Shown one piece after another: positions 18,322 through 26,136 of a DNA stretch of 53,032 nt. Numbering within the stretch: the stretch's first letter is position 1; every line of letters begins with the position of its first letter. This DNA is from Thermoplasmatota archaeon (lineage in GTDB: Archaea > Thermoplasmatota > Penumbrarchaeia > Penumbrarchaeales > Penumbrarchaeaceae): assembly GCA_016928095.1 (NCBI GenBank), contig JAFGLL010000089.1:1-53032 (forward strand), given 5' to 3'. A program made the position numbers and the translations under genes. Below the pieces are notes generated by a model, which was given only the letters and a program-made list of their open reading frames with translations, was not told the origin of the DNA and searched no databases.

Positions 18322-21300
18322 CTACTTAAGGTCTTGCCGGACATCCTCTGTGGGCAATTCTCGGGGTACTAGGGGGTTCGGACCTTCATCCTGTTCCGGA
18401 CCAGCTATCGTGTTCCTCGCCGCTGATCCGCTCTTTGACCTTCTTACAAGCACCAGACCCGTTGCCGTGAGTGCAACTATGACCAATATCCCGATGGGAA
18501 CGATGATCCACATAGCTTTCTTACCACCACTCTCAATGGGCTCGCCGGACCCTCCCGTCTCCAGATGGACATTGAAGCTCCTTACACCTTCAAGAGGATC
18601 TCCCGTCAACGAGGTCCCATCAAGGGTAACAGTATACTCTCCCCCCTTCAAACCATCGATCAAGAACAAGACCGTCCTGTTTTCGACAGAGGTCGAGTTG
18701 AAAGATTGGATGCCTGCTGTCCCGTCCGAAAGTACGAGATACATTTCGGGTGATGCCGGGACGGATAGCTCGAACGTTATCTCCATCGGTTCTCCATGGA
18801 CCGAAAGATGGGACATCAAGATGCGATCTATACCTAGCCCGTTGACCTTGATGATCTCGAATGCTGGTCTCACCACGAACCTGAACTCCTGGACCCGTGA
18901 AGGCTCCCCCGTGATGTCCTTCAATGCTTCTGATATCCTCAATATGTAGACCTTTCCATGGTCCAGAGGGAGTTTTGGGGTGATCAGCAGCGTCCTTGGG
19001 TCCATGGATAAAATGGAGATATCCCTCTCCATGCCAGATGAATAAAGGAAGATACCCGGATCGATGGTTTCGGTCTCGATAGGTTCGTTGAATGTCAGCC
19101 TGAAGACCGTTCCCGGAGCTATCTCCTGAACGTCAGGATGTGGAAAGACCTCCAGAACAGAGGGAGGAACACCATCTGTTACAACGGTTAAAAGTAGTTC
19201 ATCCAGTTGAATATTGCCGGATGGGTCGGTGACCTTCAGCAGTATCCGGTGCTCCCCGAGTTCCGATGCAATGAAAGTGATGTTCATCCCGAACAGGATC
19301 CTATCCGAGCCCTTGAAGACCCAGGTGAAGTTAGCCCCGTTGGGGAAGTCCGGATCGTTATCCGAAGAAAGAGAGGCTGACAAGTTGACAGGGGTCCCTC
19401 TGATCACTGTCTGATCATCACCCGCTACCGCTTGAGGGACCGTAATATCCATGACCGTGAGGTGGAAGGGGACGGATATCGAATTACCGCCCGTATCGGT
19501 CAAGGAAAGGACAACGGAGTATCTTCCAGGAGTGATCACCATCAGCTCCACCTCCAAACCCTCCAATGTCAGTTCATCCGGTCCGGAGAATTGCCAAAGG
19601 AACAGACCGACCTCTTCTATAAGGGGGTCGTTGTCTATCACTCCCTGGGCCTTGAGCTCAAAAAGTGTGTCTTCCTGGACATAGAGGTCGTCTGGTCGTT
19701 CCAGAGAGGGTGTCTGATCGTCCAGGACGGATATCTGTTCGTATGCTTGATCCGAATTACCTGCCGCATCCAGAACCGTCAGCAAGATGGATAGAGGCCC
19801 GGGTCTGGATAGATGTAAACTTGGACCTGGCCCATAGAGGAACATTTTCTGACCCCAGAATGAGAGTGCCCATGTATAATTGACCACACCTGAAAGCCTT
19901 GAGACCGGTCCGATATCGTAGGAACCTGACCCATCCAGCAGGAAACCGGTGGAGGTCACTGCATCGACCTGGGTGATGTTAGCCACCGGGTCATCCGGAT
20001 CGTACACGACGTAAAGGGGATAGGGAAACACTGTCGGCCCGTTCCCGTACATATCATATCCTCTTACTTGGAATTCATTGACGCCTGGGGAAAGCTCGAG
20101 ATATGCCCCGAACCTGCCTTCGTTGTCCACTGATATGTTGCGTATCGTTTGGTCGCCCATTAGGATGACAACGACGGACAGGGGTTCGGCCTCCCCGAAC
20201 AGATGATATAGAGAGATATTCTGGGAGACCTCGGTTCCCGAAAATACATCAAGTATCGGGGGAGGACTGTTATCGATGCTGTACCTTGCAAGGGGGAGAG
20301 TTGTGTTGCTGTTGTTCGCTTCATCAACGGCAACCGCTCTCAGAATGAACCATTCTCCCTCCTTTATATCCTCAGGTCGGGTCTCCGTATCCCAGATCAG
20401 GCCATCGGAGGGGGTCGTGTCGCTTTCAAGATCGGACCATGGACCATCGGGTATCATGTCCTCATTCCAGTCCCGGGCTATCTCGAACTGGACCCAAACA
20501 GTGTCATTCTCCGCTGAATAATCAAGAAGGACCTCCCGAGAGATCACATTACCATTGACAGGTCCGTTCAATACGAACCAAGGAGGTTGCGTATCACAGG
20601 GTACACCACTCACCTGATCCGTGGGTTCGGAGTTGTATCCAAGCAGATTGAAAGAGGATACCCTGTAATAATACGATTTACCGTCAACAAGGCCATTATC
20701 AGTGTAATATGTCCGGTTGTCCGGGGTGGAATGAACATTTGAGAACGATCCCGGGATATCGCTACCAGGCAGGTCCTCGACCGCCCTCCAGATGGTATAT
20801 GACATCAGATTTGTGTCATCTGGACTTTCCCATTCCAGCCTGAGCGAGTTACCGGATGGCAGAACAGATATCGAGAGGTTTGCGGGTCTTCGGGGCAAAT
20901 TCGTATCGATACGAACCGGATGTGTGGAATATCCGGTTGTAGGATGAAGATAGAGCTTATGGATATAACCTCTGATCGAGAAATTCCCCTTGATCAGATT
21001 TGGCACGGTAAAGTACCCGGAATAGTTACCATCAGATGCAACAGTATCCGGTGCTATCCCATCATCCCTTGCCTGGATGTTGGACCTACCGTTCAATCCT
21101 ACGACGTCATACCAGGATGTGAACCCCGGGGTTCCCGATATGGTCACGGTCACCGTGTCCATATATGTCAATGTCCTTCCGATGGTATCATGTGTTACGT
21201 TCAGTATGTAAGGTGGAATGAGGGCCTTTGTCCTGGCCATGACCGTCCTCTTTGGATAAGCCTCTTCATATGAGGCCGTTATTTGTTCATCACCTGAGAC

Positions 21301-23658
21301 AGAGACCTCACCTTCCAATGGTGTTCCGGTCACTACCTTTACGGACCCCTCGAATATACCAAGACCTCTACTTCCATCGACCATCTCGGAAAGATCGATG
21401 AGCTCTCCGGAGGGGTCTGTCGTCGTGTTCACCTTGACCTGCACCCATCCGCCCCCTGTCAGATTGGAATCGGAGAGGAGAAGATGAGCGATGGAACCGT
21501 TCGCCGGTATATGTTCCTCCTCCCATTGGATCCAGCCCACCGCGTCGGATATGTTACCTGTAAGAACGAATGCATAAGGCTGAGTCCCTGTGATGACCGA
21601 ATACCCGGTAACGTTCACAGTATAGATGCCGGCCTGGGGGGCCGGTATCACGATCCGTTCCACATTGTTCACAGAGTCCCTTGTATCATTGTAAGGGGAC
21701 TGGAGATCGTTTCCATTGAAATTCCTCCCGTCCGGAGTTGTGACCTTCAGGTCGAGGTCGTTGACAAGCTTCGTTGAACTCGTGTTCGATCCGGGATGAT
21801 CGCTCCATACCAGAGTGATGACAAGATCGCTGTCGCCGTTCGCAACCGTGAAAAGTCTTGTATGGGATGCCCCGGTCGTCAAACCCGTCGAGTTATCCAC
21901 ATATTTCATTCTCCCTGCATCGCTGTCCACCGTTCCCAATGAATTTGAAAGGTTCACTCTCCCCCAACCCTCTCTGCTGTTCGGGACGGATGACCATTTG
22001 TCATCCAACGGACGGGCGCCGTTGATCACCGCTGCCTTTATCAGCGCCGCGGACGGGGAGTGGCCCTCGACTTCAGAAAAATACTGGGCGATCAATGCTG
22101 CCATTCCCGCCACGATAGGGGTCGACATCGATGTCCCACCGTTGTATGCATAATTCGAGTTCACTCCCTGGTATGTCGAGTTGCTGCCCCAGTAATGGTT
22201 CCAGAAATCCGTAATGAGCGAGGATCTTGTTGATAGGATCCAGGTCCCGGGAGCCACAACATCCGGTTTTATCCTGCCGTCACCCCAGGTAGGTCCCAAA
22301 GATGAGAACGATGCCATCTCCGATATGTTATTGGCCGTCGAACTTATAGTTGGCCGGTAGCTCTCGGAAGCTCCGACAGCGATGACGTTCTTCGATACTG
22401 CCTGTGTCGAAATGGAATAAGGTCCGTCCGAACCCTGGTTCCCTGCGGAGAAAAGGACCAGAAGGTCCTTGTTCCCCCATATGAAATTGTCGGTCTGCCA
22501 TGACCTCCAGGTGTAATTACCGTAGGATCCTCTAGTGGACCATGAATTGGTCTGTATCCTGGCGCCGGACCTGTATGCATCGGAGAATAGAGTATTGTAT
22601 GCCGGGATGGAAAGGGAACCCGTGGAGTTCATTGTGGACTGCATTACAAGGCCAGCGGACGGTGCCATCCCCCGGTATTGCCCGGATGATAAGGTACCGT
22701 TCCCCAGGACCGATCCCGTAACGTGTGTTCCGTGCCCCCCCTTTTAATCCCATGAGCTGGTAGAAGGGTTCCATACATGTATGTCCGCATCGGACCAGTT
22801 CCCGGGCCTTCCATAGGTGTATACCCTTTCGATCCTGCCCTGGAAGTCACCATGCAGCGTGCTGTTCTGTCCTGTATCCAATCCCGTATCAACGACAGAT
22901 ATGATCAAGCCCGTTCCGTCAAGTGATAATGTGTTCTGGACCTCCATGACATCGATGATATCGGCCGATACATCATTGTCGGGGCCTTCTTCCCACCCTA
23001 AAGAGACATGGGATACTCCCTCGATCCTTGAGAGGTCCATCACATCTCCTAGCCTGAAGGTCCCGGAAACGGTCCCGTCCATGGGTTGATAGGTCGATCC
23101 GCCGATACAAAGGTCGTCGAGGGTTCTCAACAGGTCTTCATCGGGAGGTGTGTACAGACCAAGGATCAGTGGTGAGGTCCCTTCACCATCCATTGCGGAT
23201 ACCCTATGGAACAGACCACCTTCCACCTTGAACAATGGATGGTAAGGGACGACAGCCCTTGCATAGGGTCCTATCGAGAGCAGAAAATGACCCAAATCGA
23301 TTTGGGGTTGAACCACAATGGAGGATGATGAGACGATATCTATCAGATCAAAGGTGTCCCCATTGCGACCCATTATCTCCACCATGGATGATGGAACAAT
23401 CGCCTGGACAAGAAGAGGACCGCCTGATGTTCTTCCCGGAAGGTTCCATATCGCTTCGGCATCCAGTTTTGGGTCGAACCTGAAAGCTCCAAGATGGACA
23501 ATATATCGGGGATCACCTTCAAAATGGGGAAATTCCAAAGACCACCACTCCAATTTTAGGTCCTGGGAAGGGAGGGAGGCCTTCCCCAATACTCCAGACA
23601 AGGTGAGGCAGGATAAGAGGAACAGCAATGAGAGCGTCACCACCTTTCTGAAATGCAT
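18322..23658 (-). pseudogene. Giant subtilisin-like serine protease interrupted by an in-frame UAA
   Basis: Two open segments in the same frame are separated by one TAA at 22746-22744. The upstream part (start ATG 23658, signal MHFRKVVTLSLLFLLS) ends ...STSSWD just after the catalytic Asp in S-V-V-D-T-G-L-D (codon at 22890). After the stop the frame resumes at once with K-G-G-H-G-T-H-V-T-G (catalytic His at 22734). It continues through SAGNQGS (oxyanion Asn) and GGTSMSTPIVAG (catalytic Ser at 22131). Then come a P/PPC-like beta domain, an FN3 domain, several Ig/PKD-like domains, a Big_5-like domain and a C-terminal membrane helix. The intact reading would be about 1780 residues: an exported, membrane-anchored protease. 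Nothing else is decayed, so the stop is recent, read through, or a sequencing error. Called pseudogene provisionally. Confidence 0.72.
22744..22746 (-). other. In-frame UAA codon within the subtilase catalytic domain
   Basis: The minus strand reads TGG GAT TAA AAG GGG GGG CAC: Trp-Asp-stop-Lys-Gly-Gly-His. The frame is identical on both sides, so a single base substitution (for example in GAA, AAA or CAA) explains it; a single indel does not. The adjacent A4-G7 run is an error-prone homopolymer, but an error there would shift the frame. TAA is an ordinary stop here, for example in folP. Confidence 0.8.
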
Positions 23659-23752
23659 CGTTATTTGCCCCCAGGGAACGTTCGGCCCATCGGACCGCAA
23701 ATATTGTCTTGGAATATTGAGTTAACGGACGTCTGTTCGTTCAAGTTAGGCC

Positions 23753-24217
23753 TTATATCAGGGGTCCGCAGGCCTTTTCCGAATCCCCGTGATGCTCGTC
23801 CCCCTCATCATCCCTGGGTTTGAGGTCCGTCCTGTTGATACCTTTCTTCCTGTAATATTCATATAAAGCGGCCTTCAAGGCCTCAACGGCCAGCAGAGAG
23901 CAATGTACCTTGACGGGAGGGAGTCCTTCCAGACCTTTCACGACATCTGCCCATTTGATATTTTCTGCATCCTTCAGGTCCATCCCCTTCACGAGCTCGG
24001 TAAGCATCGAGGTCGTGGCTATTGCAGATGCACAGCCAAAGGTCCTGAACTTGATATCCTCTATCTTGTCCCCCTCTACCTTGATGGATAGCTCCATCAT
24101 ATCGCCGCAGACCGGATTACCGACAGTACCAATGGCATCGGCATCCTCCATCTCCCCAACGTTCCTGGGATTCTTGAAATGTTCCAGCACCTTCTTGGTA
24201 TATTCCAGTCTCGTCAT
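23753..24217 (-). CDS. iscU: Fe-S cluster scaffold protein IscU
   Basis: This 154-residue protein carries the three scaffold cysteines: Cys37 in NPVCGD (with the neighbouring Asp39), Cys62 in FGCASA and Cys106 in VHCS. It receives sulfur and iron, assembles a [2Fe-2S] cluster and passes it on. The last ~30 residues form a charged, His/Cys-containing tail (DEGDEHHGDSEKACG) not needed by the family. It lies 8 nt after iscS on the same strand, so the two are co-transcribed. That IscS lacks its PLP lysine, so the sulfur source for this scaffold is an open question. Confidence 0.93.
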   Translation of the reverse strand: MTRLEYTKKVLEHFKNPRNVGEMEDADAIGTVGNPVCGDMMELSIKVEGDKIEDIKFRTFGCASAIATTSMLTELVKGMDLKDAENIKWADVVKGLEGLPPVKVHCSLLAVEALKAALYEYYRKKGINRTDLKPRDDEGDEHHGDSEKACGPLI

Positions 24218-24225
24218 CGGATCAC

Positions 24226-25383
24226 CTATGGGTTGTAGAGAGGGGACATATCCCTCAACTGCTCAACGATTTCAGGCATTATCGATATCACATATTTTGC
24301 ATCTTCCATTGTATTGTCAGGGTTCATTGTGAACTGGAGGCTCCCATGGGCCTCTTCATGTCTCAATCCCATGGAAAGTAGTGTCCTGGAAGGCTCAAGG
24401 TTCTTCTGGGTGCAGGCCGATCCGGAACTGACCGAGATACCGTTCATATCCAGTAAAAGTAGCATCGATTCACCCTCTACGTAGTCGAACCTGATGTTCG
24501 CGTTGTTCGGCAGTCTGCTCTTTGGATGTCCGTTCAAATGGCTGTCGGGTATACCTAGGAGCCCTTTTATTAGATGGTCCCTGATGGAACATAATCTCGG
24601 CGAGTATATTGACATGTTCTGTTTGACATATTCAGCTGCGGCTCCAAATCCAACTATCCCGGGTATGTTCTCGGATCCGCTCCTGAGGCCCCTCTCGTGA
24701 CCTCCGCCTTTGATCAGCCCGGATATCCCTGTTCCCTTCCTTACGAAGAGTGCACCTACACCCTTTGGACCCATCAGATCGACGGAGGAAAGGGTCACAA
24801 GGTCTGCATCCAACTCCTTGACATCGAACGGTATCTGGAAGGCTGACGTCGTCAGATCGATATGAAAGAGTGCCCCATGCTCCTTGACCAGTTCCAGGAC
24901 CTCTCCCAGGGGTTGCAGTGTGCCGACCTCGTGGCTGGCGAAAGGGATGGATACCATGTACACATCTTCCCCGATCGTCCTCTCTGCCTCTTCCATGGAA
25001 ATTCTTCCCGATCCATCAAGCTCAAGAACACTCCTTCTGAGCCCTGAATTCTCTATAGCGGCCGATGTGGCCCTCACGGATTGATGATCTGCCTGCGAGA
25101 TAACTATACGGTCCTTACCGGGACCTCTGAAAGGTATCGGCCCCCGCAATGCAAGATTGATAGATTCCGTTGCACCGGATGTGAATATAATCTCGGATGG
25201 GTCCGAGCCAATAAGGGAAGCAACCCTCTCACGGGCGACCTCCATCGCACGTCTAGGCTTCTTCCCCAGCTCGTGAATGGAGGAAGGATTCCCGTAGTGC
25301 TCGGTGAAGAATGGCAGCATCTCCTCCACCACCTCTCTCCTTGTCGGCATGGCCGAGTTGGAATCAAGATAGATCCTTTTCAA
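24226..25383 (-). CDS. iscS: IscS-like protein lacking the PLP lysine (probably not an active desulfurase)
   Basis: The 385 residues align throughout with class V cysteine desulfurases: YLDSNSAMP near the start, GNPSSIHELG (31-40), FTSGATESINLALRG (67-81), the PLP-stacking His100, Asp176, and the catalytic-loop Cys324 in SSGSAC. The Schiff-base site, normally S-A-H-K-x-x-G-P-K-G, reads SSVDLMGPKG (199-208), so the essential His-Lys is Val201-Asp202. Two further cofactor contacts also differ (N-N-E to S-H-E at 150-152; the Gln of the D-x-x-Q motif to Thr179). PLP is therefore probably not bound and cysteine not desulfurated. From memory, Archaeoglobus fulgidus IscS has the same Lys-to-Asp change and was studied with IscU as a cluster-ligand partner. 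A TATA box at 25429-25437 gives iscS-iscU its own promoter. Confidence 0.88.
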   Translation of the reverse strand: MKRIYLDSNSAMPTRREVVEEMLPFFTEHYGNPSSIHELGKKPRRAMEVARERVASLIGSDPSEIIFTSGATESINLALRGPIPFRGPGKDRIVISQADHQSVRATSAAIENSGLRRSVLELDGSGRISMEEAERTIGEDVYMVSIPFASHEVGTLQPLGEVLELVKEHGALFHIDLTTSAFQIPFDVKELDADLVTLSSVDLMGPKGVGALFVRKGTGISGLIKGGGHERGLRSGSENIPGIVGFGAAAEYVKQNMSIYSPRLCSIRDHLIKGLLGIPDSHLNGHPKSRLPNNANIRFDYVEGESMLLLLDMNGISVSSGSACTQKNLEPSRTLLSMGLRHEEAHGSLQFTMNPDNTMEDAKYVISIMPEIVEQLRDMSPLYNP

Positions 25384-25485: not shown

Positions 25486-26136
25486 CTACTCACCCTTCTG
25501 TTCGAAGTAGTGTTCTATTATCTTCTTCTGACCCCTTCTCAGTGTCTCTGAAACGGAAGCCGTCGATATGTCGAACAATCTGGCAAGTTCCCTTATGCCT
25601 ATACGTTTGGGGAAATCATAATACCCTCTCTCCAGGGCGGTCTTGATGATCTTCTCCTGTCTGGGGGTGAGGGATTCCCTGTCATCCACTGGTTGTATCA
25701 GGATCAGTCTGCTATCGATCCCTCTTTTCTCGAGCGACCCTACCAGTTTCTGAAGCTGGACCTTCTCGTTGAGTATGAGCTTCCACTCGACCCACCCCTG
25801 ATCATCGGTAGAAGCGGATATAAGAAAGCACCCTGATTCCAGAATGGACCGACATCCGCTACATCCCTTGGTCCCGACAATAACGATGACCTTATCCTGA
25901 TCCACTTTGCTGGCCTTCACGAAATCGATGTGATCATACTCAGATATGAGCTTCTCTATCAGACCCGGGTCGGCCCCGTTCAATTTCACTTCAGCAAGGT
26001 CCTGGACCCCTTCTTCGCCAAAAGCTATCGTATCGATGATGTTGACCGAAATGGGTAGCTGTCGCGAGATCTTTCCCACCCAGCTCTCTTTAAGATTCAC
26101 GGCCAGTACTGCCTCGTACAATTGTTCACCCCACAC
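25486..26136 (-). CDS. Bat-type HTH transcriptional regulator with clustered cysteines
   Basis: The protein has 216 residues and probably starts at a GTG. The C-terminal ~60 residues (LTPRQEKIIKTALERGYYDFPKRIG, then ELARLFDISTASVSETLRRGQKKI) are a clear bacterioopsin-activator-type HTH (HTH_10), a DNA-binding domain nearly confined to archaea. The N-terminal ~150 residues look like a small-molecule or redox-sensing domain. They contain Cys92, Cys95 and Cys103 (C-S-G-C ... C), a spacing suited to a metal, an Fe-S cluster or a disulfide. It is encoded 102 nt upstream of iscS-iscU on the same strand and diverges from the PAN gene. A role as an Fe-S or redox-responsive regulator of iscSU is an inference from position and cysteines only. 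Confidence 0.8.
   Translation of the reverse strand: MWGEQLYEAVLAVNLKESWVGKISRQLPISVNIIDTIAFGEEGVQDLAEVKLNGADPGLIEKLISEYDHIDFVKASKVDQDKVIVIVGTKGCSGCRSILESGCFLISASTDDQGWVEWKLILNEKVQLQKLVGSLEKRGIDSRLILIQPVDDRESLTPRQEKIIKTALERGYYDFPKRIGIRELARLFDISTASVSETLRRGQKKIIEHYFEQKGE

Follow-up and report, generated by a model that had tools for sequence, protein, structure and literature searches.

The window, by which is meant the whole stretch of 53,032 nucleotides analysed here, encodes on its minus strand (24226–25383) an IscS homologue of 385 amino acids, with a TTG start, that is without the PLP lysine of the cysteine desulfurases. Comparison with Archaeoglobus fulgidus IscS gives good support, at a probability of about 0.72, to the reading of this protein as an Archaeoglobus-type pseudo-desulfurase, which would act as a structural partner of IscU rather than as a desulfurase, with Cys324 as a transient ligand and with sulfide, or else a persulfide donated by another protein, as the source of sulfur.

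The protein matches the Pfam family Aminotran_5 (9e-68), and its top sequence match in the PDB is A. fulgidus IscS (4eb5, 3e-106). An AlphaFold2 model (pLDDT 92.1, pTM 0.91), in which the only stretch with pLDDT below 50 is the Cys loop at residues 323–326, was matched by Foldseek to 4eb7 and 4eb5 with TM 0.94–0.96 and 44% identity, and also to E. coli IscS and NFS1 (TM 0.95); Pfam, model and Foldseek agree on a class V aminotransferase domain of fold-type I. Of the residues that characterise a class V cysteine desulfurase, the PLP Schiff-base lysine, Gln183 and Arg354 (aligned positions are given in E. coli numbering) are replaced by D202, T179 and Q350, and the catalytic loop cysteine is present as C324. 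The Schiff-base motif reads TLSSVDLMGPKGVG, in which Asp202 (codon GAT, 24778–24780, on the minus strand like the other codons given here) aligns with E. coli K206, so that the Lys-to-Asp change originally read in SSVDLMGPKG is real. Thr179 (24847–24849) replaces Gln183, the contact to PLP O3′; Gln350 (24334–24336) replaces Arg354, which binds the substrate carboxylate; and Leu177 (24853–24855) replaces the alanine, A181, beside the Asp at PLP N1. The mobile loop has the motif SSGSACTQK and retains, as had been claimed, its cysteine, Cys324 (TGC, 24412–24414), equivalent to E. coli C328 and to the cluster ligand C321 of A. fulgidus. The cofactor and substrate roles of the E. coli residues, including Arg354, are those set out in PMC9978102. 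The original prediction had two more cofactor contacts changed besides the lysine; contacts have indeed changed, but that count was too low, since alignment gives H205V, Q183T, N155H, A181L and R354Q in addition to K206D. T76, H104, D180, S203 and C328 are unchanged.

Seven sequences of the window family cover the lysine site (G000 and G002–G007, from a total of eight family genomes), and all seven have Asp there. The iscS dN/dS ratio among three congeneric sequences is about 0.12–0.14 (NG86), and the gene is therefore under purifying selection; in view of this ratio and of the 7/7 conservation, the Asp is not the product of chance or of sequencing error. Leu likewise occupies the A181 position in 7/7 sequences, 44 other aligned Asp-type rows having Ala or Gly, while the N155 position varies within the family (H, S, P, Q, Y, N). 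In this fold Ala181 packs behind the pyridine ring of PLP, so a leucine there would crowd the cofactor, and PLP binding is accordingly less likely in the window family.

The distribution of the substitution was traced in an alignment of 175 non-redundant IscS sequences of adequate length from the fetched loci, together with A. fulgidus 4eb5. Of the resulting 176 rows, 50 have Asp at the lysine site, 122 Lys, two Thr, one Ala and one Leu. Trees were built with the trait columns removed. On an 89-row tree all 50 Asp rows and the Ala row are separated from the rest by a branch supported at 100/98.9 (bootstrap/SH-aLRT); the same branch has an SH-aLRT of 80 in a quick 176-row tree, on which the site undergoes four state changes, the minimum possible. 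A. fulgidus 4eb5 and window IscS are both inside the Asp clade, and repeated independent origin of the Asp was rejected because a single K-to-D change suffices on these trees. The clade's named representatives belong to Archaeoglobus, ANME-2, Bathyarchaeota, Thorarchaeota, Lokiarchaeia, Methanomethyliaceae, Nitrospinota and Actinomycetota, with many more from the window's own phylum and from that of the ANME-2 genome. The oddity of A. fulgidus IscS is not, then, the quirk of one organism: it belongs to a single old and widespread branch that reaches across several phyla of archaea and into a few bacteria. The suggestion that Val-Asp might define a clade survives only for the Asp, the residue before it being Asn in 47 of the 50 sequences and Val only in the window protein; Asp and not Val-Asp is therefore the clade marker.

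Within this branch the whole catalytic set was lost together. K206, H205, Q183 and the substrate-binding R354 are absent from all 50 Asp-type sequences, a joint loss that supports the predicted loss of desulfurase chemistry, and the lysine-type sequences keep Gln183, His205 and Arg354 in 121 of 122 cases each. The IscU-facing loop cysteine stayed (C328, 50/50), as did H104, D180 and T76 (each 50/50). The pocket was also inspected for a conserved lysine elsewhere, and none exists across the Asp clade: the lysine of GPKG (position 207) varies among R, K, Q, P, Y and H, and K327, which lies close to the loop cysteine, occurs commonly in lysine-type sequences too, so both were rejected as compensating residues.

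Other lysine-less IscS proteins were encountered. A second, separate lineage in the phylum (L229 in genome G179 and L231 in G253) has Lys206 changed to Thr, His104 to Asp (IEDFP) and Gln183 to His, with Arg354 kept; each gene lies beside an intact iscU, and both genomes also carry a lysine-type IscS. Two single sequences, at L233 (G242) and as the second IscS of L078 (Rokubacteria), have the PLP lysine replaced, one by Ala and the other by Leu, and are again beside an intact iscU. The one with Ala falls in the Asp clade, and the one with Leu among the lysine-type sequences, with Gln183, His205 and Arg354 intact.

Pairing with a normal IscU, a further element of the original prediction, was confirmed. 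The iscU gene (23753–24217, minus strand) starts 8 nt past the iscS stop and encodes a scaffold in which alignment shows all four cluster-site residues, C37, D39, C62 and C106, to be present. In 40 of 50 cases iscU lies no more than 60 nt downstream of an Asp-type iscS, and the IscU ligands are intact wherever they could be aligned; in two of the unpaired cases (G016 and G027), which were checked, a single IscU is encoded elsewhere in the genome. When the IscU proteins that go with Asp-type IscS were compared with those of Lys-type IscS for signs of co-specialisation, differences did appear, for example a Val before Cys37 in 39 of 41, but these cannot be told from shared ancestry. The window's own genome has a second, more distant NifU_N/IscU-like gene (contig C96, L244 892–3010), directly after two genes for ferredoxin-containing MinD-type ATPases; G005 has a similar arrangement (L245).

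Upstream of iscS and in the same orientation is a gene for an HTH_10 regulator (25486–26136, minus strand). The order HTH_10 regulator–iscS–iscU, beside a proteasome-type ATPase and MetRS, holds throughout the family as far as the contigs reach. The regulator has three cysteines, a CxxC and a third Cys (GTKGCSGCR...SGC), which are invariant in the seven family copies compared. It is a putative regulator of iscSU, and possibly an iron-sulfur or redox sensor. No such regulator was found beside iscS at the loci fetched from outside the family, many of them with little sequence on either side of the gene. Beyond iscU is a subtilase-like protease (18322–23700, minus strand) that reads as two open reading frames, 22744–23700 and 18322–22668, being split by one in-frame TAA just before its HGTH motif; three relatives read through without a stop.

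Pfam searches for SufB/SufD/SmsB (PF01458) found none in the eight family genomes, although the domain was found in 14/14 control genomes and, of the 116 genomes of the phylum that were sampled, in 77. A two-sequence SmsB profile also gave no match in the family, in a search set that held no positive control, and there was none to the L-cysteine desulfidase CyuA (PF03313), a conceivable source of sulfide. As far as iron-sulfur machinery can be recognised in the window lineage, the lysine-less IscS–IscU pair is its main component.

The likely working of the pair can be sketched by analogy with A. fulgidus. In that organism Cys321 ligates the [2Fe-2S] cluster in the complex of IscS with IscU(D35A), as described in PMC9769115 and PMC7585200; PMC9769115 presents the Cys ligation and its exchange with the IscU Asp as shown or modelled. 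By the same logic window IscS, in which both the IscS fold and the mobile loop with its cysteine survive, is likely to assemble with IscU as an (IscS)2(IscU)2 complex. In that complex Cys324 would reach the IscU site and, alongside the Cys ligands of IscU, complete the coordination of a [2Fe-2S] cluster as it forms. Asp39 of IscU might then replace Cys324 and let the loaded IscU leave. The sulfur would not be taken from cysteine by way of PLP on window IscS, but would arrive as sulfide or be handed over by another protein as persulfide; in anaerobic E. coli, H2S can feed assembly on IscU without IscS (PMC13015791).

Three other accounts of window IscS have to be set against this one. That the gene is decaying or mis-sequenced, and so without function, might be thought from the loss of several catalytic residues and from the in-frame stop in the neighbouring protease gene, but it is scarcely credible when the 385-aa frame is intact, every family member covering the site has Asp, dN/dS is so low and synteny with iscU is conserved. 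More serious, if still improbable, is the proposal that PLP sits in the pocket without a covalent bond and supports a slow, lysine-independent turnover of cysteine. In its favour is the invariance of His104, Asp180, Thr76 and Ser203 across the Asp clade despite the loss of the lysine, Gln183 and Arg354, which suggests that the pocket still binds PLP or some other ligand, or else meets a structural need; it also weighs against the pseudo-desulfurase reading, since pure loss of a cofactor site would not predict it. Further, a figure in PMC9769115 depicts the A. fulgidus complex with PLP, and in E. coli K206A the interaction between PLP and cysteine persists, though the reaction is very slow (PMC9978102). 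The original statement that such a protein should not bind PLP is, in the light of the four invariant contacts and of the A. fulgidus complex, too strong for the clade, and better suited to the window family with its Ala181-to-Leu change. Slow turnover, however, has to contend with the loss of Q183 and R354 on top of K206, with the leucine that the window family adds in the ring site, and with the absence of desulfurase activity reported for A. fulgidus IscS in PMC7585200 and attributed there to its reference 47.

A stronger rival, though an unlikely one, is a sulfur relay, in which Cys324 would carry a persulfide loaded by another enzyme, a SufS-like or a rhodanese-like donor, so that window IscS would be a transfer subunit and its cysteine no cluster ligand. 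The search of the genome for a second, lysine-containing desulfurase, envisaged with the original prediction, did find a candidate donor: a class V SufS-like protein on contig C41, with the motif SGHKAMGPTG and an RSGKHC loop, that matches TIGR01979 at 1e-115, below the curated cut-off of that model. Such a protein is present in five of the eight family genomes and could be the real source of sulfur, which would tell against the pseudo-desulfurase reading; the invariant Cys loop of the Asp clade is in keeping with a relay. Against it, the SufS-like gene is unlinked to iscSU, and no SufS-like match was found in G005, a genome 95% complete that keeps its Asp-type IscS and IscU. The pseudo-desulfurase reading remains the preferred one. 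It may be extended for the window family, but only tentatively and at less than even odds, to a system that goes beyond A. fulgidus: Leu would fill the PLP ring site and the protein would work without PLP; with no SufB/SmsB, a sulfide-fed IscS–IscU would be the main iron-sulfur machinery; and the three-cysteine HTH_10 protein would be the sensor in the place that IscR has in bacteria.

An IscS without the lysine is a kind already known from A. fulgidus and, by sequence, from Methanosarcina acetivorans IscS1, and the idea of a scaffold partner that uses sulfide and is no desulfurase is not new either, having been published for the former and suggested for the latter. What looks new in the window family is the Leu in place of A181 (7/7), the lack of detectable SufB/SmsB in eight genomes and the three-cysteine HTH_10 regulator upstream of iscSU. 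These features, together with the wide spread of the clade from one origin and the loss of Arg354, Gln183 and His205 as a package, were not found described in the literature searched, a set without subscription papers such as the first ones on A. fulgidus and on MIS/SMS. The family can serve as a natural experiment on whether a cell's iron-sulfur clusters can be sustained from sulfide by IscU and an IscS that yields no sulfur itself, in the absence of detectable SufB/SmsB.

With E. coli IscS and human NFS1, window IscS shares the fold, the loop Cys and the IscU partner, but those are PLP-lysine enzymes and it is without Lys206, His205, Gln183 and Arg354. It resembles MIS, the minimal IscS–IscU system, as summarised in PMC12192291, in being a minimal iscS–iscU pair without carriers; MIS is described there with a cysteine desulfurase, whereas the window has the gene pair and an IscS lacking the desulfurase residues. 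M. acetivorans IscS1, whose gene is paired with that of IscU1, likewise has no catalytic lysine, and its authors suggest an A. fulgidus-like role for it, but it coexists with the lysine-containing IscS2 and IscS3 and with SufBC, and it went into inclusion bodies (PMC7585200). A. fulgidus itself has an SmsCB system (PMC12192291, Fig. 9), for which no SufB/SmsB counterpart was found in the window family, and the family departs from it further in the A181-to-Leu change and the drift at N155, to which the window protein adds H205 to V. A. fulgidus IscS (PDB 4eb5, 4eb7 and 4hvk; D199K mutant 4r5f) shows, as Asp at the site in 4eb5 attests in agreement with the precedent originally named, the same Lys-to-Asp replacement, the same loss of H205, Q183 and R354, the same retained loop Cys and pairing with IscU, and membership of the same clade.
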